Notes: generated by a model from the letters alone, not told the origin. A stretch of DNA of 64,000 nt from Spirochaetales bacterium (GCA_017614375.1 JAGABZ010000002.1:1-64000), one strand, 5' to 3'; shown: positions 4,929-16,820, numbered from the stretch's first letter. Program-made: numbers and translations.

Positions 4929-6473
4929 CTATAGTCCGAAACTCCGTCGGTATACCGGTCTGAGGGCCGGGTAAAGGTTTTTGTATACGCTTTCGTATGT
5001 GCGGCGGTACAGCCTGTGGTTGTCCTCGTCGGGCAGAAACGAGGTCGTGTAGTGAACCATGCTCCGCACGGCGTCCTCGTAGGAGGCAAACTGGCCGCAG
5101 GCCATGAAGCTGATAATCGCGGCACCCAACGCGCTGGTCTCGGCGGTGTGGCAGCGATAGGCAGGCAGGCCGAAAACATCACAGGCAAGCTGGCAGATGC
5201 CGTCGCTGCGGGAACCTCCTCCGCAGAGACAGATTGCCTGTATCTTTTTATGGCTTCTGGCGCTGATTCCCTCCAGGCTCTGCAGCAGTTCGTAGTTGAT
5301 GCCCTCCAGAATGGCCCGGTAAAGATGGGCCCGTGTATGGTAGTCCGAAAGCCCGATAATCGACCCGTGTGCCTCCAGTTGCTTCAGGCCGGGACACCAA
5401 TAAGGCTGCAGGACCATTCCGTCACACCCCGGGGGAGTCTGCTCGAGCAGTCTGTCCAGAAGCTGCTCCACAGGGATTCCCGTTTTGCGGCTCTCAATCT
5501 TCTCAGCCTGGCCGAACTGCTCGGCGAACCACCTGACCATCCAGTAGCCGCGGTAGATCTGGACCTCGGGGTTCCAGTGTCCCCTGACGGCAGAGATGTA
5601 AGCCGGCAGGAAGCGCTGGGGTTCGACATACCGGTCGGTTGTGATTTCCACAGTGGCGGTGGTGCCGAAGGATACGGAGGCCAGATCACTTTCCAGCACT
5701 CCGCAGCCGAGGGTCTCGCAGGCCTTGTCCGTGGCTCCGGCAACGACCTTCAGGCCTTTGGGCAGTCCCGTCTTCTGAGCCACGGCGTCGGTGATCGTAC
5801 CTATGGTCTCCCCCACTTCGACGGCAGGAGGCAGCAGTGCCGGGTCGACCGGAGTGGCAGCCCACATCAGGCTGCCCTTGCGACGGTAGGTTCCGTTTTT
5901 GTAGTTGACGGGTATGTGCCCGCAGAGGTTTGCCTTTGAGTCAATCAGGTTGCCGGTGAGTTTGTAGTTCAGCCAGCATTCCAGAGACACATAGTGGGCC
6001 AGATTTCTGAAGGTTCCGGGTTCGTTCTCCTCGAGCCATACGGTCCGGGTGACCTTGCGCTGCTGGCGGATGACTTCGGTCATGCCGACCATGGCAAAGA
6101 TAGCCGCCTGATGAAGCGGGATCTTCTTTCTGTCCTTGGCGACACGCTGGTCCGGCCAGACTATCGCCGGGCGGAGGATGCGTTTCTTGTCATCCAGACA
6201 TATATAGGTATCGCGCAGGCAGGAGATGCAGATGGAAACCAGGCTTTGGCGCTGTTCGTCAGAGAGTTGTTCAGACACACCGCTCAGACCGCGGACAGCC
6301 GCGTCCCACCAGAACTCGGGATCCTGCTCCGCCCAGCCGTTCTTCTGGCTGTAGTAAGGTTCGTCATACCTGACGGCCTCGGTGGCCACCGGCTCTCCGT
6401 CGGTGTTGAAAACGATGGCTCTCAGACTCTGCGTGCCGCAGTCAATACTCAATGCCAAGGGGCTTCTGGACAT
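4929..6473 (-). CDS. FGGY-family carbohydrate kinase
   Basis: A 514-residue sugar kinase of the xylulokinase/glycerol-kinase superfamily, phosphorylating an unidentified pentulose, polyol or related substrate. Seen: LSIDCGTQSLRAIVF phosphate-1 loop at the N-terminus, GWAEQDPEFWW, a SFGTTATVEI phosphate-2 segment and a C-terminal CLCGGGSRSDG nucleotide-binding signature near residue 415. The sequence does not reveal the substrate, and no transporter or isomerase gene is adjacent. AGGAG precedes the ATG, with its own promoter at 6509-6537. Confidence 0.88.
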   Translation of the reverse strand: MSRSPLALSIDCGTQSLRAIVFNTDGEPVATEAVRYDEPYYSQKNGWAEQDPEFWWDAAVRGLSGVSEQLSDEQRQSLVSICISCLRDTYICLDDKKRILRPAIVWPDQRVAKDRKKIPLHQAAIFAMVGMTEVIRQQRKVTRTVWLEENEPGTFRNLAHYVSLECWLNYKLTGNLIDSKANLCGHIPVNYKNGTYRRKGSLMWAATPVDPALLPPAVEVGETIGTITDAVAQKTGLPKGLKVVAGATDKACETLGCGVLESDLASVSFGTTATVEITTDRYVEPQRFLPAYISAVRGHWNPEVQIYRGYWMVRWFAEQFGQAEKIESRKTGIPVEQLLDRLLEQTPPGCDGMVLQPYWCPGLKQLEAHGSIIGLSDYHTRAHLYRAILEGINYELLQSLEGISARSHKKIQAICLCGGGSRSDGICQLACDVFGLPAYRCHTAETSALGAAIISFMACGQFASYEDAVRSMVHYTTSFLPDEDNHRLYRRTYESVYKNLYPALRPVYRRSFGL

Positions 6474-6567: not shown

Positions 6568-9500
6568 TCAGAGTACCGTAACTGAGTTTGTTGTCGTCTG
6601 GACGGTGGCGTCCTGAGTTTCGTCGTACCAGGTCCAGTCGTCTTCCCACGACCAGCTCTCCTGCTCGGCGAAGATCTTGTCCCAGAACTCCGTCTCGGAC
6701 TCACGCTCGACTTCCCTGAGCATGAACGAGCGTTCGTAGATGTCGGTGGCGATCTGGATTTCCTCGACGGTCTGGTCGTATTCCCAGAAATCCTGGAGCA
6801 GGATGACCTGCGAACCCTGGTCGAGGACCGGCACTTCAAAGAAGAGGCCGTACCAGACCTTGGTCTTCGAACCTTCGGGTGTGACGTCCAGGTCGATGCA
6901 GTACAATCCGGGCTCGAGGTTGCTCTGGATGAACCGGCCTGTTTCGTCGGTGAACATGTAGTTGTCGGTCAGCTGGATCGAGTAAACCTTCTGCCCGTCT
7001 TCGATATCCTCGTAGATCCGGTAAATCGGCGAAGTGTACAGCTCGTTGGGAGTCCCGTCAGCGTTGTAGAGGATTGCCGACATAGTCACCGTCGGAGTGA
7101 CTGCCACATGCATCACATAGCCCTGGCGCGGACGCGGGGTCATTCCGATGAGGAAGGTTCCTCCGCTGCCGAACAGGGAACTGTCATCGCTGTAGATGAC
7201 GATTCCGTTGTGCTGGTACAGCGACAATCCGGTGTAGAGGTAGTTGCCGAATACCTTCCGGTACTGGGTCGAGGAAGAGGCTGTGGCCTTTCCGATCGAA
7301 ACCGGGACGTTCTTCATCAGTCCGTCCGGATGGACTAGCAGGAAGCTACCGGCCACCGAACGGGCCATACCGAACTGCCCGTCGGCAAAGACGACGGCGG
7401 TATTCAGCGACAGGGTCGTTCCGGCCGACTGGTAGCTGTTGGAGAAGTTCTGCCTCAGCGACAGACCGACCAGATCACCGTTGTACGAATAGCTGATGCC
7501 CATCGAATGGTCGAGCCATCTGTCCATGTTCTCAGAATTGAAGGTCGGCCTGATTCCGTTCAGGGCCAGCTGGATGCTCGAACGGATCGAACCGAACGGC
7601 CTCCAGTTCAGGCTGGCGTCGATGGTGGAGTAATCGGACCTGGCATAGGCACTGGCATCGCTTCCGAGCTGGAATGACAGACCGATGGAACCGCGGATCG
7701 GGGCTCCGTCGCCGTTGGCATAGCCGGCCACCAGGGCGCTTGAGGTCGTCAGGCTGGCGTTGAGCTGGATTCCGTCCACCAAAGTGGTGTTCAGAGAGCC
7801 GCTCAGGCTCCATGCCCATTCGTTGTAACTGCCTGTGTACGAGGCGGAACCGGACAAACTGAAACGGACATCATCGACAGTCCAGCCGTAACCGAGCGAG
7901 GCCGACCAGCGGGAACCGGACGAGTCGTAGGACAGGCCCGTGCTGACGGCTGCCAGGAGTCCCTCGTTGAAGCGCGGGGTAATAGAGGCACTCCAGCTTA
8001 TCGTGTCGGTGTCCAGAGCGGCCCACCCTATGGGAATCTCGGCAATCTGGATCTGGGCGGTGTAGTTCAGCGAGCCGAAGTTGAATGCCTGGATTGCCGA
8101 GAACGAATCGTAGAACCTCAGTGAATACTCATCCAAAGCGTTCAGGCTGCCGGAAAGGGCGATGAGGTTGTTGATCGTCATCGAATGGGTAAGCCCGACC
8201 GCCTGCTGAAGCGAAAGCGAGAAGTCGGAGAACTTCGCCACATAGCGGTCCAGATTGAAGTCCACATAGTGGAATCCGGCGAATGTTCCGTCGTCGATTA
8301 CACTGGGGAAGCTGTAGGTGAACTTCCAGAGATATTCACCCTTTGCCATCAGGGATGAATCGTAACCGAGATTGAACGAGAGGATCTTGATTTCCGGAGC
8401 CGGGTCGTTGAAGTCCACCTCCACACCCTCGGGAACCTCCCAGATCTCAATCTCGTTGGCGCCCTGGACAAAGGTGAAGTCCTTGAGTCTGTACTTTCCG
8501 ACCTTCATCTTACGGCTGAAAGCTTCCATACCGTTCATGAAGACGATGACGGTGCAGTCCTGCTCGAGGATTATCTCCTGCTCGAACTGATTGCCCAGCT
8601 TCTCGCCGTTACCATAGGAATAACTCTTTTCAAGCGAGAACCCGAACGGGTTGCTCGGCTCGATTGCCGAGTACGCCGAAACGCTTCCGATCGACAGACG
8701 GAGGCTGTCATCCGGGAAATCGATGTAGGCCAAAGCCCTGGAGACATAAAAGGCGTCCCTGATGCTGACATCCGAATCCGCCCTGGTCGCCCGAACCAGC
8801 CTGTACAGATCCACACTGGCGGTGAAGTCCAGCGCGAGGTCGCAGAACGAGACCATGTTGGAAATCGTCAGGTTGAGGTTCTTTGTCGAAATCTGCCAGT
8901 TTCCCGCCTGTGAATTATGACTGTAGCCAAGATAACCGTAAAGGGAAAGGTTGGCCGACCAGCTCAGAGTGGCGGCGTCTATGTCGGAAACACCGACGAT
9001 GCTCGCCAGAGTCCTGGTGTGCGAAAGGCTCTGGGAGGAAAGCGATACGCTCTGAATGGGAAGCTGCTCGGCGCTGAACTCGAGATAGACGATGAACTGG
9101 TTGGTGTCGAAGCTCAGACCTATTCCGAACGAGGACAAGTATTCCTCTCCGTAGTAGGCCTCCTCCGACGAGAAGAACTCGGTGGCGAAATCCGGTTCGA
9201 GGAAAGCCTGAAGCAACGCCTGCAGCTCTGTTCTGCTGATGAACGGGGAGTTGCTCCTCATGTCGACCTGAATCGAGCCGTAGTACTCACCGTTTACGTA
9301 GATGTACGGATACTGGATTCCGTCGTCGTACACCAGGTCGCCGCCACCGTAGTAGAAGTCGGCGAAGAAATCATCGTTATAGTCTGTATTCGAGAAATCC
9401 CACGGCTCCTCGACATAGACGTAGAGTACCGGAGGCGGGGACGGAACGCGGACCTCCGGTTCAGCCGACAGAGAGGTGATGTCCTGTCCCTCCTGGGAAA

Positions 9501-9987
9501 CCAGTTCGACGACATCCTGGGAAATCTTTTCCTGTACTGGCTCCTCCTCTTCAATCGGGGAAACATAGACGGAGAACTGCTCCTGGGTTTCAGCCTCAGG
9601 CTGAATCGGCGGGGACAGGACCGGCTCCTCTTCCTCCGGGGGAGCCTCGGAGAGATGAACCTCAACGTCTTCCTCCGCCTCGGAGGCAAGGATGGTGGCC
9701 GGGGCGGCTTCCCCGACGTCCTCCTCCGGCCCGGGCATCTGTCCGGCGCTCTGGGGCTGGGAAACGGTCGGTACCACGACGACGACCTCCGGTTCCGCTG
9801 GAACATCGGAGACAGGACTCTCAACGGTCTCGGTGACCGGAACCTGGGCGGGGCCGGACTCGGGCACAAGGGTGCTGACCCGCGGATACACCAGATACGC
9901 TCCGCCCCCTACAATGATGGTGGTCAACACCGAATAGAGAATTATGATTGCGCGCTTTCTGCGCCTGGCTTTTTCTCTTACGCCCAT
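6568..9987 (-). CDS. Usher-like outer-membrane protein with inner-membrane anchor
   Basis: A 1139-residue protein with unusual order. Residues about 8-36 are a basic stretch and one hydrophobic helix without a clear cleavage site (signal anchor). About 42-190 is a Pro/Glu-rich spacer. About 215-320 resembles an usher N-terminal domain (YIYVNGEYYGSIQVDM; GLSFDTNQFIVYLEF). About 320-990 is Ser/Tyr-rich alternating beta sequence, with an usher-like VIVFMNGMEAFSRK...GKYRLKDF segment near 480-505. The C-terminus has a carboxypeptidase-regulatory-like turn (TDETGRFIQSNLEPGLY). Ushers pass chaperone-bound subunits across the outer membrane; the preceding gene encodes such a chaperone. Start: ATG 9987 is preferred over TTG 10008, though neither has a strong ribosome site. 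Confidence 0.72.
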   Translation of the reverse strand: MGVREKARRRKRAIIILYSVLTTIIVGGGAYLVYPRVSTLVPESGPAQVPVTETVESPVSDVPAEPEVVVVVPTVSQPQSAGQMPGPEEDVGEAAPATILASEAEEDVEVHLSEAPPEEEEPVLSPPIQPEAETQEQFSVYVSPIEEEEPVQEKISQDVVELVSQEGQDITSLSAEPEVRVPSPPPVLYVYVEEPWDFSNTDYNDDFFADFYYGGGDLVYDDGIQYPYIYVNGEYYGSIQVDMRSNSPFISRTELQALLQAFLEPDFATEFFSSEEAYYGEEYLSSFGIGLSFDTNQFIVYLEFSAEQLPIQSVSLSSQSLSHTRTLASIVGVSDIDAATLSWSANLSLYGYLGYSHNSQAGNWQISTKNLNLTISNMVSFCDLALDFTASVDLYRLVRATRADSDVSIRDAFYVSRALAYIDFPDDSLRLSIGSVSAYSAIEPSNPFGFSLEKSYSYGNGEKLGNQFEQEIILEQDCTVIVFMNGMEAFSRKMKVGKYRLKDFTFVQGANEIEIWEVPEGVEVDFNDPAPEIKILSFNLGYDSSLMAKGEYLWKFTYSFPSVIDDGTFAGFHYVDFNLDRYVAKFSDFSLSLQQAVGLTHSMTINNLIALSGSLNALDEYSLRFYDSFSAIQAFNFGSLNYTAQIQIAEIPIGWAALDTDTISWSASITPRFNEGLLAAVSTGLSYDSSGSRWSASLGYGWTVDDVRFSLSGSASYTGSYNEWAWSLSGSLNTTLVDGIQLNASLTTSSALVAGYANGDGAPIRGSIGLSFQLGSDASAYARSDYSTIDASLNWRPFGSIRSSIQLALNGIRPTFNSENMDRWLDHSMGISYSYNGDLVGLSLRQNFSNSYQSAGTTLSLNTAVVFADGQFGMARSVAGSFLLVHPDGLMKNVPVSIGKATASSSTQYRKVFGNYLYTGLSLYQHNGIVIYSDDSSLFGSGGTFLIGMTPRPRQGYVMHVAVTPTVTMSAILYNADGTPNELYTSPIYRIYEDIEDGQKVYSIQLTDNYMFTDETGRFIQSNLEPGLYCIDLDVTPEGSKTKVWYGLFFEVPVLDQGSQVILLQDFWEYDQTVEEIQIATDIYERSFMLREVERESETEFWDKIFAEQESWSWEDDWTWYDETQDATVQTTTNSVTVL

Positions 9988-10000
9988 TTTCCGTGCCCGT

Positions 10001-10032
10001 AAAAACAAGAGGCCGATGTTGAATCACCGGCC
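10001..10032 (-). terminator. Intercistronic terminator-like hairpin between chaperone and usher
   Basis: On the minus strand, 8-bp stem GGCCGGTG/CATCGGCC (one G-T pair) with a 6-nt loop, followed by TCTTGTTTTT. It lies 14 nt before the usher ATG, and would lower usher relative to chaperone expression. Partial termination is inferred. Confidence 0.6.
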
Positions 10033-10051
10033 CCACTGTCGCATAGAATTG

Positions 10052-10798
10052 TCACTCGAAGGATATTGCGGCTTTGTAAGACCCTGACAAATCCTCGGGG
10101 AACTCCAGTTCCTCCGGCCACGGGATGAGAACAACCAGCTTCTTTTTTGCCAGGATGTTGATTCCGGCAACTCCGGGGAGCTGGTCCGTACCGGAAAGCG
10201 TTATCTGCTTTCCCTTGGGATCGGTGATGGTAACCGACATGCCGATGGTCACCTGATGGACGTTTCCGGAGTTGACCATGGTAACTTCCATCTTCTTGTT
10301 CCCCTCCTCGTCAATGACCGGCTTGAGTGATGTGATGTCCAGACGGGATACGACCTGAGCAGGCGCCACGTAAACGGCCGTGGTGTAGATGTACAGGAAG
10401 TTGAACATGTTCTGCTGGGATTCCTGACGGCCGAGTGAGTAGTTGACCTGCTCTGCCCTCAGACGGAATGACAGCTCGCTGGTGACGGTCGACGGACCTC
10501 TGTACTGAACCCTGACATACTGCGAGGAGTTGGCGGGTACGACAACCTTGCTCGGGGAAATCGAGAAGTACCTGGAGGCGTCGGTGTTCAACTCCTCTCC
10601 CGTCTCGGATTGATCCCTGACGAGGGCAGTGATTACGACGGCGATGGAGTCGTTGGAGTCATTGACTATCGTAAAGGTCTTCTGACTGTCTGCGCCGGTC
10701 GGTGAGAACGTCTGCTCCAGAGGTGAGAACTGGAATGCGAAGACGCTGCAAACCGCGAACAACACAACGGCGGTGACTGCGGAGAATCTCTTAATCAT
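10052..10798 (-). CDS. Periplasmic pilus-assembly chaperone (PapD-like)
   Basis: A 248-residue secreted protein: signal peptide residues 1-22 (ending VFAFQ), then an immunoglobulin-like domain with F-x-FSPTGADSQKTFTIVNDS, a RDQSETGEELN turn and VVVPANSSQYVRVQYRG, the pattern of the fimbrial chaperone family (COG3121), and a second beta domain from about residue 150. Such chaperones stabilise pilin subunits in the periplasm by donor-strand complementation. It precedes the usher-like gene by 64 nt under one promoter. No subunit gene is adjacent, so clients must be encoded elsewhere or be non-pilin. Confidence 0.78.
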   Translation of the reverse strand: MIKRFSAVTAVVLFAVCSVFAFQFSPLEQTFSPTGADSQKTFTIVNDSNDSIAVVITALVRDQSETGEELNTDASRYFSISPSKVVVPANSSQYVRVQYRGPSTVTSELSFRLRAEQVNYSLGRQESQQNMFNFLYIYTTAVYVAPAQVVSRLDITSLKPVIDEEGNKKMEVTMVNSGNVHQVTIGMSVTITDPKGKQITLSGTDQLPGVAGINILAKKKLVVLIPWPEELEFPEDLSGSYKAAISFE

Positions 10799-10960: not shown

Positions 10961-10978
10961 CTTGATTGCGAAAATGCT

Positions 10979-11052
10979 CGGGTTGTAGCGCAGGGGTTTA
11001 GCGTACAAGTCTGGGGGACTTGGGGTCGGCGGTTCAAATCCGCCCAGCCCGA
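10979..11052 (+). tRNA. tRNA-Pro (anticodon GGG)
   Basis: Cloverleaf read by eye: acceptor CGGGTTG/CAGCCCG with discriminator A, anticodon stem CAAGT/ACTTG around the loop CTGGGGG (anticodon GGG), T arm with TTCAAAT loop closed by GGCGG/CCGCC. The CCA end is not encoded. Confidence 0.95.
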
Positions 11053-11061
11053 ATAAAAGCA

Positions 11062-11998: not shown

Positions 11999-14356
11999 CT
12001 AGTACCTGAGCGACCCGATCAGGGCCTTGATGCTGTCCGAAGTGGCCTTTGCGGAGTTTATGAACGAGTTGTCGGCGATGTTCCCCACCACGGCGTCCTG
12101 CTCCTCTTCGCTGCGGTAGGTAATCGAGCGGAAGAAGTTGCGGTAGTCCTTGTCCCTGGTGAGGAAGACCTGCTCATCGATAAACGAGCGGGAATTGAGG
12201 GCAACTTCGACGCAACTGCCGAACTGGTCCTTTGACAGGTGGTCCGTCCTGTACAGGCTGTGCAGGGCCAGACAGGCATCGACGGCCTTGTACAGGGGGT
12301 AATCCCCATCCAGGGCCCGGTATCTGTCATGAACCGCATCCCAGCTGTCCAGAACCCCGGATTTGACGTCGTCCAGCAGGGATCTGACCAGCGTGGTCGG
12401 TATCAGCTGGCCGCCGACGTTCTCCCACCTGATTAGCCCGTAGTCCTGGGTCAGGGCATAGGCCGAAACCTGTTCACGGGGATACTCGACCAGGGGGCAG
12501 GTAGACACAGATTTTTCCAGCTGCCGGAAGTTGATACCGTGCTCCGAGCAGTACCGTGCAGCCTCGGTGATTCCGTAGTACTGCAGCATCATAACGTAGG
12601 CGGCATAGGCCTGGACCGGCTTGACTATCACCACGGGATTGTTTGAATTCTCCATCCCCTCCCCGGTGACTTCGATGTCCTCGACCAACTGCGGCTGCCT
12701 GTTCAGCAGATAGCGCCCGATTCTGGCCAGGTCGGTGACCTGTCTGAGGTTGCCCTCGTCGATATGCTCCCACGGATGGAAGACGGAGGATTTCTCCAGA
12801 GCGGCGGTGTACTGCGGATTCAGGTCGATTCCCACCGCCTGTCCGAGGTCCCGGATGACCGAACAGTCCGCCCCGAAGTTCCTCAGAAGGCTCTTTGCCG
12901 TCCAGACTTCAAGCAGGAACAGGGCTTTTCGGATTTCATTGGCTGTATCCGGGGCCAGATAGGCCGTCTCGATAATCTGCTTTGGGTGTTTGCGCCGGTC
13001 GCGGGCCTTGTACTTGTAGCAGTTGCGCTCAAGGGCGTACATGTTGTACATCCACCAGTACGCCGGCATGATCTCGCGGCGGTGGGCGGCGGTGTTGTCC
13101 CACAGAAGTGAGAACGGCAGTTCGATAAACAGTTCGTTCGGGTAGTTTCCCTTGTTGAGCAGGGTGTAGGAGGCGAACTTGCTGTTGTGCTTGAGCGTGC
13201 TGGAAAGAGCCGGCCAGAATCCCCGGCCACCAACCAGCTCCCCGTCTGCTCCGCGGCTGTTGTGGTTCGAGCCTACGGTGGCTCCGGCGGCTATGTTGGA
13301 CTGCCCCATGACCAGGGACGCAATCAGGAACGAGTTGTTGTGATGCTGCTCGTGTCCGGGGAAAATCAGGTTGCTTATCATCTCGCAGCAGGAAACGGTC
13401 GAGTTGTCTCCCAGAATCGAGTGAATCAGACGGGCTCCGTAACTGAGTTTGCAGTTGTCCCCCATCAGAAAGCGCACGGCCTTGCACCCGTAGAAGATGT
13501 TCGAGCCGCAGCCTATGATTCCGTTGACCAGTTCCACGCCCTCGCCGATCTGCACCGGACTGTCCTCAACCGAAAGCAGGCTGAGGTTCTTCAGTTTGTT
13601 GGCCCCCTTGATGTAGCTGCACGGGCCGATGTAGACGTCCTTTATGATTCTGCAGCCCTTGATTACGCTGTCATGCCCGACTATTCCGTATCTGCCCCGT
13701 CGGGAATCACATACTTTGGAGGTTAGGTCCATGAAGCGCTGAAGAAGCTGCGGATCGGAGCGGTAGCTGCCCCAGAGATAGGCGTCGGCCGGGGTCATTC
13801 CCACGAACGGAGCGACCCTGCGCCCGCCGTTTTCGTTCATTATCTCGATGGTGACCAGGACATCCGGGTCCTCGCCCTCCTTGACCACCCCGTTTCCGAA
13901 CTTGGAGTGGTTGGTCGTCTGGAGTTCGTCGACCCTGGAGAGTATGCAGTGGTCCTGGATTATGTAGTTTGCCACATAGGCGCAGCGCATGATGCTGCAG
14001 TGCGCCCCAATGTCCGAAGAAATCAGTCTGCTGGAAACGATACCCTCCGGTTGGGCGAAGTCATGGAAGCTCAGGATCTGTTTCTGGAGCGGTCCGAGCC
14101 TGACCAGTCCGTAGAACCCGCTGGTGCGGATCACGCCCGGGTCAAAAGGATCCTGGACCAGGACCTGACCCCAGTCGTCGCTGTAGTTTCCGCCGGCTTC
14201 AAGGGCGGTAACTTCGGCGGGTGTGAGGTGCCGGTAGTTGCAGTTGTCCCCGTTCTGCTGAAAACGGAAGCTGTACTCGTCCTCTCCCTCTCTCAGAAAC
14301 TCGTCGGGTACGAAACCGTAACCCAGGGTGTTTTCCTGTGAAACCTTTACGGGCAT
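11999..14356 (-). CDS. DUF4954 family protein with left-handed beta-helix repeats
   Basis: A 785-residue cytoplasmic protein recognised as DUF4954, known from Bacteroidetes and spirochaetes, function unknown. The first half contains many hexapeptide-type turns (IGAHCSIMRCAYV, GHDSVIKGCRIIKDVYIGPCSYI, IGEGVELVNGIIGCGSNIFYG, LSYGARLIHSILGDNSTV) forming a left-handed beta-helix like those of nucleotidyl- and acyltransferases. The second half (from about residue 420) is helical. ATG at 14356 is chosen because AGGGAGGG precedes it; an upstream ATG at 14404 lacks a good site. It follows the acyltransferase fusion gene, suggesting an envelope link. Confidence 0.82.
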   Translation of the reverse strand: MPVKVSQENTLGYGFVPDEFLREGEDEYSFRFQQNGDNCNYRHLTPAEVTALEAGGNYSDDWGQVLVQDPFDPGVIRTSGFYGLVRLGPLQKQILSFHDFAQPEGIVSSRLISSDIGAHCSIMRCAYVANYIIQDHCILSRVDELQTTNHSKFGNGVVKEGEDPDVLVTIEIMNENGGRRVAPFVGMTPADAYLWGSYRSDPQLLQRFMDLTSKVCDSRRGRYGIVGHDSVIKGCRIIKDVYIGPCSYIKGANKLKNLSLLSVEDSPVQIGEGVELVNGIIGCGSNIFYGCKAVRFLMGDNCKLSYGARLIHSILGDNSTVSCCEMISNLIFPGHEQHHNNSFLIASLVMGQSNIAAGATVGSNHNSRGADGELVGGRGFWPALSSTLKHNSKFASYTLLNKGNYPNELFIELPFSLLWDNTAAHRREIMPAYWWMYNMYALERNCYKYKARDRRKHPKQIIETAYLAPDTANEIRKALFLLEVWTAKSLLRNFGADCSVIRDLGQAVGIDLNPQYTAALEKSSVFHPWEHIDEGNLRQVTDLARIGRYLLNRQPQLVEDIEVTGEGMENSNNPVVIVKPVQAYAAYVMMLQYYGITEAARYCSEHGINFRQLEKSVSTCPLVEYPREQVSAYALTQDYGLIRWENVGGQLIPTTLVRSLLDDVKSGVLDSWDAVHDRYRALDGDYPLYKAVDACLALHSLYRTDHLSKDQFGSCVEVALNSRSFIDEQVFLTRDKDYRNFFRSITYRSEEEQDAVVGNIADNSFINSAKATSDSIKALIGSLRY

Positions 14357-14417
14357 GAACCCTCCCTGTGGCGCTCTGCCGGCCACGCAGTCATTGTCCG
14401 ACATTGACCGCCAATCG

Positions 14418-16820
14418 TCAAGATTCGTACTTTCCGGCCAATCCCTTTTCGGTGATTATCCTTGAGGCCACATGGAATTTCTGGGAAATCCGCCCGTCCC
14501 CGGTAAAGGCAAAGCGTCTGCTGTGCTTCTTGAACGGCAGCTCGATGTGCTTGCCCATCTTCATTATGGCGACCGGAACGCTGGACAGGGTATCGTGCTC
14601 ACGGACCTGCTCCCCGAGCAGGGTTCCGGTGTATACCCAGCCGTCCTTCAGGCTGAGGCTGATGATACCCTCCCCTTTGTCCACGTAGCCGTCGGTGTCG
14701 ACAATGTCGATTCCGTACCGCACAGGGGCTTCCAGACGCCAGTTGGGATCCTCCATCTCGGCGGACAAAGCCTGATACTGCCAGTCGTACCACTGGCTGT
14801 AGTTGTCGAACCGGCAGTTGCCGCTGACCCAGTCAAAGCGGAAATCATCGTTGATTGTCGCCCTCAGGGAGCATGAGGTGCACCAGATGTCATTGCCCTC
14901 CGTCTTGAGGGTGAATTCCTTCCCGCAGTCCGGGCACCTGAACAGCAGATCATCCAGCCCTTCGGCCTTTGTCGTGCCTCTGATCTTTACGCCGGTGCGC
15001 CTCTGGAACTCGAAGTCATCGAAATCAAGGGCCTGAACTATACGTTTGTGCATCGTCTCAGAATCAAGCGAACGGACCTCTTCGGCGGTGAAAAGCGGAG
15101 CCATCGACACATCGACACGGCCCTTCTGGCAGACCTTCTGCCACTTGCCCTGCCCCAGCCCGGCACCCTCGATCTTTATCGTGTAGACCGGCACCGAGAG
15201 GAATCTCACCATCTTTACTATCGCGTTGGATATATAGCCGCTCTTACCGTTGGCGTAGACCGTCCCCTCCGGCGCGACGAACGTCACTCCGCCGTGCCTG
15301 GTGATGTACCTGAGCTTCTTCATCGCCGTGATATCGGTGGCAAACTGGTACTTGGGAATCACCCCCATGTACCTCAGCCAGGGCCTGAGTTTGCGGAAGG
15401 TGAACCAGTAGTAGGTGGCGAGGAAGTTGATCCGCACGGGCCAGCAGGCGGCGGCAATGAAAAGATAGTCGTAGTTCGACGCGTGGTTGGTCAGAATCAG
15501 AGCTGGACCTTTGATCTTCGTCCTTTTGACCACCCTCATTCCATGTCCGAAGCGGCACAGAGGCCCTACTCCCAGATAGGCCAGCAGATACAGCCAGAGC
15601 GGGGGCCTCTTGTGGGCGTCGGTCGGACGGATCATCATCCTCTGAAGCTGCTCGTGGACCACCGGATTATCCTTTCCGCCCTCCAGGTAGTCATCCAGTT
15701 CCGGCTCTCCGGCCAGCGCCTTTGACGAAACCAGCATCAGGAAAAATCCGATTATCCCGTAGCCGAGCGCGACCCAGCCCAGGGGCAAGCCCTGACCGCC
15801 AGCCAACCCTCCGATTCCGATGCCCAGAATCAGGCAGACCTCCGATGTTACGCAAAAAAGCGGAATGTCGGCGTTTCCGGAAAGCAACCTCAGCGTCCTC
15901 GAGGCGGTCACCGACCAGCCTCCGGCGCTGCCGGCTATACCGCCGATACCCAGTCCGAAAGCAACGCAGGCAACCAGATTCGCCGCCCCACCGTCAGGAT
16001 AGATGGCCAGCAGAACCGAGCCGCAGAGGGTAAACAGCAGGCCCGCCAGGAACCTCAGCCCCTTGGAAAACGTCTTTGCCGTAAGGAGCATCAGCAGAAT
16101 CCCGAGCGCCACCCCGAGCAGGAAACGAATCGGACGGTCCGATTCAGAAAGACAAACCGCGGCAAAACCTGACAGCAGACCGGTCAGAGTCGAAAGAACC
16201 AGCGAGAACCGCGGGACGGACATCTTCAACAGCGAGTAGAAGCGCAGTTTCCTCTGACCGTCAAAGACCGCCCTCCCGTCGTCCCGGTCGCGAAGCCCCA
16301 GCCCCGTCTCCACGCAAAGCCCCTCCAGATTGAGAAGAAGCCCGAAAAGAACCGACGGGAAAAGCACCGACAGAAGTACACAGATCTGTCTGAAAGACCC
16401 GACTCGGAGGCGGATGAACAGACCTCCGGCAACAAGCAGGGCGGCAATGACCAGGGCAAGCAGGGTGCTGTCCCCGGCGGAAGACCCCAGGGCGGATGCA
16501 GTCCTGATTGCGCTCAGAATCGATGAAAAGCACCAGACGCAGACGATACCCAAAGTCAGGACAGCCCATGCCGGCAGCCCCTCGAATGCGGACAGGACAA
16601 AGACGCTGAGCGAACCGAGGACCAGAAGGATCCTCTCCAGAATCAACGCGGATTTCGATGCCCTGTCATGGGGAATTACCGCGCCGAGAAGCAGAGCAAC
16701 GAGGAGCAAAGGCAACCGTTCAGAGCCGGGACTCTCCGAAACATAAAGGAAAACACCGGCAATGCCGGCCAAGACAATCGCCCCTGCCGAAGTGGAAACC
16801 GGGCTGCTGCATCTGCGCAT
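14418..16820 (-). CDS. MFS-like transporter / acyltransferase / zinc-ribbon fusion
   Basis: An 800-residue fusion. Residues 1 to about 375 are a string of hydrophobic helices resembling a major-facilitator lysophospholipid transporter (LplT-like). About 420-600 is a PlsC-type acyltransferase: NHASNYDYL (HX4D catalytic motif) and VAPEGTV. About 630-670 holds a zinc ribbon (CPDCGKEF, then CTSCSL), followed by a beta-rich tail. Transporter-acyltransferase fusions flip and re-acylate lysophospholipids. The zinc ribbon is not part of the standard architecture. Site AAGGAAGG precedes the ATG. Confidence 0.8.
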   Translation of the reverse strand: MRRCSSPVSTSAGAIVLAGIAGVFLYVSESPGSERLPLLLVALLLGAVIPHDRASKSALILERILLVLGSLSVFVLSAFEGLPAWAVLTLGIVCVWCFSSILSAIRTASALGSSAGDSTLLALVIAALLVAGGLFIRLRVGSFRQICVLLSVLFPSVLFGLLLNLEGLCVETGLGLRDRDDGRAVFDGQRKLRFYSLLKMSVPRFSLVLSTLTGLLSGFAAVCLSESDRPIRFLLGVALGILLMLLTAKTFSKGLRFLAGLLFTLCGSVLLAIYPDGGAANLVACVAFGLGIGGIAGSAGGWSVTASRTLRLLSGNADIPLFCVTSEVCLILGIGIGGLAGGQGLPLGWVALGYGIIGFFLMLVSSKALAGEPELDDYLEGGKDNPVVHEQLQRMMIRPTDAHKRPPLWLYLLAYLGVGPLCRFGHGMRVVKRTKIKGPALILTNHASNYDYLFIAAACWPVRINFLATYYWFTFRKLRPWLRYMGVIPKYQFATDITAMKKLRYITRHGGVTFVAPEGTVYANGKSGYISNAIVKMVRFLSVPVYTIKIEGAGLGQGKWQKVCQKGRVDVSMAPLFTAEEVRSLDSETMHKRIVQALDFDDFEFQRRTGVKIRGTTKAEGLDDLLFRCPDCGKEFTLKTEGNDIWCTSCSLRATINDDFRFDWVSGNCRFDNYSQWYDWQYQALSAEMEDPNWRLEAPVRYGIDIVDTDGYVDKGEGIISLSLKDGWVYTGTLLGEQVREHDTLSSVPVAIMKMGKHIELPFKKHSRRFAFTGDGRISQKFHVASRIITEKGLAGKYES

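Follow-up and report, generated by a model that had tools for sequence, protein, structure and literature searches.

We describe a chaperone-usher pair of a Spirochaetales bacterium in which the usher carries a membrane anchor and a long acidic spacer ahead of an otherwise normal usher body. The pair lies in a 64,000-nucleotide stretch of DNA (GCA_017614375.1 JAGABZ010000002.1:1-64000; positions 1-64000 of contig C10), referred to here as the window, from a 1.54-Mb, 98% complete genome (G000) that named relatives place in the Sphaerochaetaceae. In chaperone-usher systems, a periplasmic chaperone holds Sec-exported subunits and hands them to the N-terminal domain (NTD) of the usher, whose barrel polymerises them by donor-strand exchange. 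The ushers FimD and PapC begin with a cleaved signal peptide and, to our knowledge, have neither a membrane anchor nor a spacer. We propose that the window usher is probably a three-part protein, composed of an inner-membrane signal anchor, a periplasm-crossing tether and a normal outer-membrane usher, and that it serves the products of an unlinked four-gene pilin module (P1-P4). An earlier note on this DNA had raised the possibility of a distinct secretion system. Instead, the fold, the chaperone and the pilins place the pair in the chaperone-usher pilus pathway, in which it represents a new usher architecture and not a new secretion class.

The window usher had no sequence match in Pfam, NCBIfam or the PDB, and the Usher profile PF00577 matched neither this protein nor anything else in its genome; the same profile was matched by 4 of 27 relatives. 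A search of PDB sequences with the usher profile returned chance matches only, and the comparison of that profile with FimD aligned the NTD and plug in the right order, but weakly (E 0.0033, probability 9.7%). We then turned to the fold. From an alignment with 26 relatives, AlphaFold predicted a helix (residues 2-33), a disordered region (34-217), a small domain (223-315) and a barrel into which a plug is inserted after about six strands; the chain ends in C-terminal beta domains and a tail that is again disordered. When this model was compared with the PDB using Foldseek, the top 17 places were all occupied by FimD or PapC (best E 5.5e-28, probability 1.00, target-normalised template-modelling score up to 0.65), at a sequence identity of about 11-15%. 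We consider the modelled product of 6568-9987 (-) to be firmly assigned as an usher, and the fold test to outweigh the missing PF00577 match. The barrel with plug that the earlier note had anticipated is therefore present in the model, with about 24 strands as read from DSSP. The C-terminal beta domains weakly match CarboxypepD_reg in 8 of the 27 relatives. The start codon, ATG at 9987, was set by alignment with same-genus homologues, and the TTG upstream of it falls within the T-run of a terminator-like hairpin. The locus is thus, as the note had read it, a PapD-like chaperone gene followed by an usher-like protein of 1139 residues.

The unusual part of this usher precedes the NTD. Its N terminus reads MGVREKARRRKR-AIIILYSVLTTIIVGGGAYLVY and leads into a spacer about 183 residues long; the stretch from the transmembrane helix to the NTD is 32% proline plus glutamate and has a net charge of -37. 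The helix is a hydrophobic stretch of 22 residues, and no clear AxA site follows it. A membrane anchor and a periplasm-length spacer had both been foreseen, although the spacer is longer than the roughly 150 residues first estimated. The accompanying comparison with TonB holds for layout and goes no further. In TonB, TolA and other anchored proteins that span the periplasm, an N-in membrane helix leads into a long spacer rich in Pro and Glu, as in the window usher, but we detected no sequence relation to them; the window usher gave no Pfam match to the TonB C-terminal domain, and at its far end the chain itself forms an outer-membrane barrel, where those proteins have a docking domain.

The anchor-spacer-usher order recurs across the family. 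The chaperone and usher genes are adjacent in 26 of 37 Sphaerochaetaceae genomes, and the full-length ushers begin with a helix followed by a spacer, an architecture shared by independent genomes that represent more than 15 genera. Gaps between the two genes are mostly 6-51 bp. Applying a simple hydropathy window to some 70 ushers, most of them from a set of 80 named loci, we found that essentially every family usher with an N terminus has one or more transmembrane segments together with a net-acidic spacer no shorter than 102 residues (weak second segments in L213 and L232 lie within the spacer and were counted as spacer). Ushers that adjoin V-type ATPase (V-ATPase) genes or stand alone have one segment; those followed by pilins, a sister clade of 28 loci, have 2-7, which no cleavable signal peptide explains. 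In a chaperone tree built within Spirochaetota, the multi-segment group forms one clade (support 99/95) and the single-segment group occupies one side of a branch, weakly (62/29). Comparison of close relatives gave omega values for the anchor codons of mostly 0.06-0.47, with one short, diverged pair reaching 0.85, indicating that the anchor is under purifying selection. By contrast, helix and spacer occurred in none of the 30 ushers inspected from other families of the class, nearly all of which have an ordinary N-terminal signal peptide, followed by the NTD, and most of which are 780-960 residues long. From these comparisons, the anchor is a derived trait of the Sphaerochaetaceae. Homologues with a normal signal peptide, which the earlier note had thought would reduce the anchor to a start-site error, thus exist only outside the family and do not make it one. 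Lipoprotein anchoring was also considered and rejected: many relatives have a Cys at the helix end, but the window usher has neither a lipobox nor a Cys there, and a lipobox-like motif occurs in 3% of single-helix ushers. Separately, one usher copy (L241; G009:C7) is shortened by an in-frame TAA, possibly as a pseudogene or through an assembly error.

Sharp drops in identity within the spacer set the anchor apart from the usher body. The DNA of L262 (L262:9807) and L267 is 93.5% identical over the upstream genes, the chaperone and the anchor; this identity ends within the spacer, at about usher codon 146, beyond which there is no DNA match, and protein identity is about 45% in the usher body and 22-38% in the pilins. 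L269 (L269:11432) and L272 show a like pattern, with the switch near usher codon 224. In these two related pairs, chaperone and anchor behave as a constant module and barrel and pilins as a variable one, which supports an anchor function separate from the usher body. The swap could reflect antigenic or phage-driven cassette exchange.

No subunit gene adjoins the pair at the window locus, where the neighbours are, as previously noted, an FGGY sugar kinase and a tRNA-Pro. A pilin scan covering about 99% of the window's own genome (1,530,008 of 1,539,278 bases) revealed one unlinked module of four genes, P1-P4 (G000:C5:149711-152986), encoding proteins of 195, 225, 229 and 443 amino acids, each gene overlapping the next by 4 bp. 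On this basis we rejected a pilinless system for this genome. The module is also present, unlinked, in related genomes, and close relatives carry homologous pilins directly behind an anchored usher. The order chaperone-usher-pilins was found in 25 loci, most of them with a 4-bp overlap between the usher stop and the gene that follows; in the multi-segment clade, the genes behind the usher encode a series of secreted proteins, each about 200 residues long except for one of 413-565 residues. P2, P3 and P4 match the usher-linked genes of this sister clade in the same order: the P4 profile matched three genes downstream of pilin-linked ushers (4e-23, 4e-20 and 9e-18), the P3 profile two usher-linked genes (1e-12 and 3e-12) and the P2 profile one (4e-6). 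The AlphaFold model of P4 (predicted local distance difference test (pLDDT) 84.5) had CfaE-CfaB, CfaB and the CupB6 tip adhesin as its best PDB matches; P3 touched CsuE weakly (E 0.46). None of P1-P4 matched the SCPU (Spore Coat U) domain, which is matched by the tips of outgroup operons, ordered pilin, chaperone, usher and SCPU-domain tip. Because P1-P4 are homologous to usher-linked genes and P4 is predicted to fold like chaperone-usher tip adhesins, they are the best candidate substrates of the window usher. Two further observations concern these subunits. Four loci of Sphaerochaeta-like genomes (L335, L336, L337 and L339) have a conserved cluster of two to four small secreted proteins (about 170-190 amino acids) near an HtpG-like chaperone gene, with weak P3-profile matches, which are candidate pilins of V-ATPase-linked ushers. 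Genome G035 (L176) has a complete P1-P4 module, and no chaperone or usher was detected in it.

The window chaperone is PapD-like, matching PF00345 (PapD_N) with 28.8 bits against a cut-off of 23. Pro82 and Arg112 are invariant across 27 homologues. The best alignment partner was EcpB, and the two residues align with the EcpB Pro and Arg of the non-classical signature, assuming a chain-numbering offset of 15; a direct comparison with FimC gave nothing useful. Known archaic and alternative systems usually keep their subunits in the operon, and we know of none whose usher has an inner-membrane part. The window system resembles archaic (Csu) and alternative (Ecp, CFA/I) systems in this Pro/Arg signature and in a P4 fold like those of CfaE and CupB6, and is probably non-classical. 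The Pro and Arg of CsuC and EcpB have been named as the signature of non-classical chaperones, and the archaic family has been recorded in Proteobacteria, Cyanobacteria and Deinococcus-Thermus, with Spirochaetota not listed (PMC4654587). With classical FimD and PapC, the window usher shares the NTD, plug, barrel and C-terminal domains and an adjacent chaperone gene, and it differs from them in its anchor and spacer and in having no PF00577 match. Spirochaete ushers outside the Sphaerochaetaceae (L086, L087 and L342-L371) have a homologous chaperone and usher, with pilin and SCPU-type tip genes as well in L086 and L087, but with few exceptions their ushers fall in the shorter size range given above, and they have no helix-plus-spacer. 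In L343 and L344, from another spirochaete family, about 130 extra residues lie between signal peptide and NTD, a different pre-NTD insertion. A literature search of partial coverage found no description of anchored ushers or of ushers of Sphaerochaetaceae.

In the mechanism we propose, the N-in signal anchor would sit in the inner membrane, the acidic, disordered tether of about 183 residues would cross the periplasm and the usher would occupy the outer membrane. At about 0.34 nm per residue, such a leash could extend to about 60 nm, more than the periplasm. The chaperone would carry P1-P4 subunits from their unlinked operon to the usher, where donor-strand exchange would join them into a fibre tipped by the two-domain P4. 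We infer that P1-P4 are the substrates of this usher, that the anchor stays uncleaved and that it has a mechanical role: by fixing the outer-membrane pore to the inner membrane, the tether would give the fibre a mechanical base and the pore a fixed position near subunit export. None of the 37 Sphaerochaetaceae genomes (G000-G036) gave a flagellin match, and each has 0-1 peptidoglycan transpeptidase matches, whereas genomes from other families in the class mostly have 3-5; going by this co-occurrence, an inner-membrane foothold for fibres would fit an envelope without flagellin and with few transpeptidases. We advance only tentatively, as somewhat doubtful, the larger idea that the inner-membrane part is itself a working component and more than an export signal, the chaperone and anchor forming a constant platform that receives different barrels and pilin sets, swapped as cassettes by recombination in the spacer. 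This would be the first chaperone-usher system to span both membranes in one polypeptide, with a possible coupling of the inner membrane to assembly or load.

Several observations weigh against a tethered pilus usher. In the model, pLDDT is about 50-70 for the helix and 23-45 for the spacer. P4 was detectable in 13 of the 26 family genomes with the pair and in 1 of the 11 without it (uncorrected for relatedness), a co-occurrence that is only suggestive. The majority of single-helix copies are followed by a V-ATPase operon instead of pilins, which leaves room for a different function. A (small)-x-Ala pattern of some kind also occurs near the end of the helix in about half of the single-helix ushers, so this form may be cleaved. 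The helix would then be an export signal-anchor that signal peptidase or another protease later clips, leaving the mature usher free in the outer membrane with a disordered N-terminal tail, and the ordinary cleaved signal peptides of ushers in other families of the class would agree with this. We judge clipping unlikely, if not negligibly so: the 2-7 segments of the sister clade could not be removed by signal peptidase as a signal peptide, the anchor codons are conserved, the window helix offers no clear cleavage site and the spacer is kept at its minimum length or above throughout.

We consider it improbable that the V-ATPase-linked pairs have lost pilus function and now act as an inner-to-outer membrane envelope tether or export something else. 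The idea draws on 32 single-helix loci (including L202, L204-L210, L212 and L226-L245) that have a V-ATPase subunit operon directly downstream, often 3-100 bp away, and no pilins nearby, on the 13 genomes with the pair that give no P4 match and on the scarcity of transpeptidases in the family. However, the residues of a pilus chaperone are invariant, and several V-ATPase-linked genomes hold P2-P4 modules, or tandem small secreted genes weakly matching the P3 profile, elsewhere. A P1-P4 module is present in the window genome itself, where the pair is not linked to V-ATPase genes, which implies that the linkage is not needed for function. Hardly any weight falls on the anchor being a product of fusion, frameshift or start-site error. 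All that speaks for this is the choice of an upstream TTG by the open reading frame (ORF) caller; against it stand the spread of the architecture over independent genomes, the short chaperone-usher gaps and the selection on anchor codons, which together with family-wide conservation of the anchor led us to reject a start-site error.

Features of the chaperone-usher locus in the window
Feature	Coordinates	Strand	Details
Anchored usher	6568-9987	(-)	1139 aa from ATG at 9987; ORF tool start TTG at 10008
Membrane anchor, residues 13-34	9886-9951	(-)	RRRKR before it; N-in by positive-inside rule
Acidic Pro/Glu-rich spacer, residues 35-217	9337-9885	(-)	Predicted disordered
Usher NTD, about residues 218-330	8998-9336	(-)	FimD profile comparison and AlphaFold model
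Usher beta-barrel, about residues 331-870	7378-8997	(-)	About 6 strands before plug, about 18 after, read from DSSP string
Plug domain within barrel, about residues 466-522	8422-8592	(-)	FimD profile comparison and AlphaFold model
C-terminal beta domains, about residues 871-1108	6664-7377	(-)	AlphaFold model
Acidic disordered C-terminal tail, residues 1109-1139	6571-6663	(-)	AlphaFold model
PapD-like periplasmic chaperone	10052-10798	(-)	248 aa; ordinary cleavable signal peptide (..SVFA/FQ)
Terminator-like hairpin and T-run, between chaperone stop and usher start	10009-10034	(-)	Consensus match only
FGGY sugar kinase, downstream of usher	4929-6473	(-)	
tRNA-Pro, upstream of chaperone	10978-11053	(+)	

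The hairpin between the two genes could reduce usher relative to chaperone; the count of terminator-like hairpins in the region is not above that in shuffled sequences. Most relatives have a short chaperone-usher gap at this position. Two large genes lie nearby, one for a DUF4954/DUF6819 hexapeptide-like protein (11999-14404) and one for an 800-residue protein with an acyltransferase domain (14418-16820). PADLOC gave no match.

In the descriptions known to us, chaperone-usher pili are assembled by an outer-membrane pore that has no inner-membrane link. If our proposal is true, this account would have an exception in a whole bacterial family, whose usher is tethered to the inner membrane and, in one clade, polytopic. 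Two questions would then become testable: whether the inner membrane can anchor or regulate such fibres, and how cells that lack flagellin and have little machinery for peptidoglycan synthesis hold their pili. In the Sphaerochaetaceae, both membranes may be bridged by one protein, an arrangement not seen in other known chaperone-usher systems.

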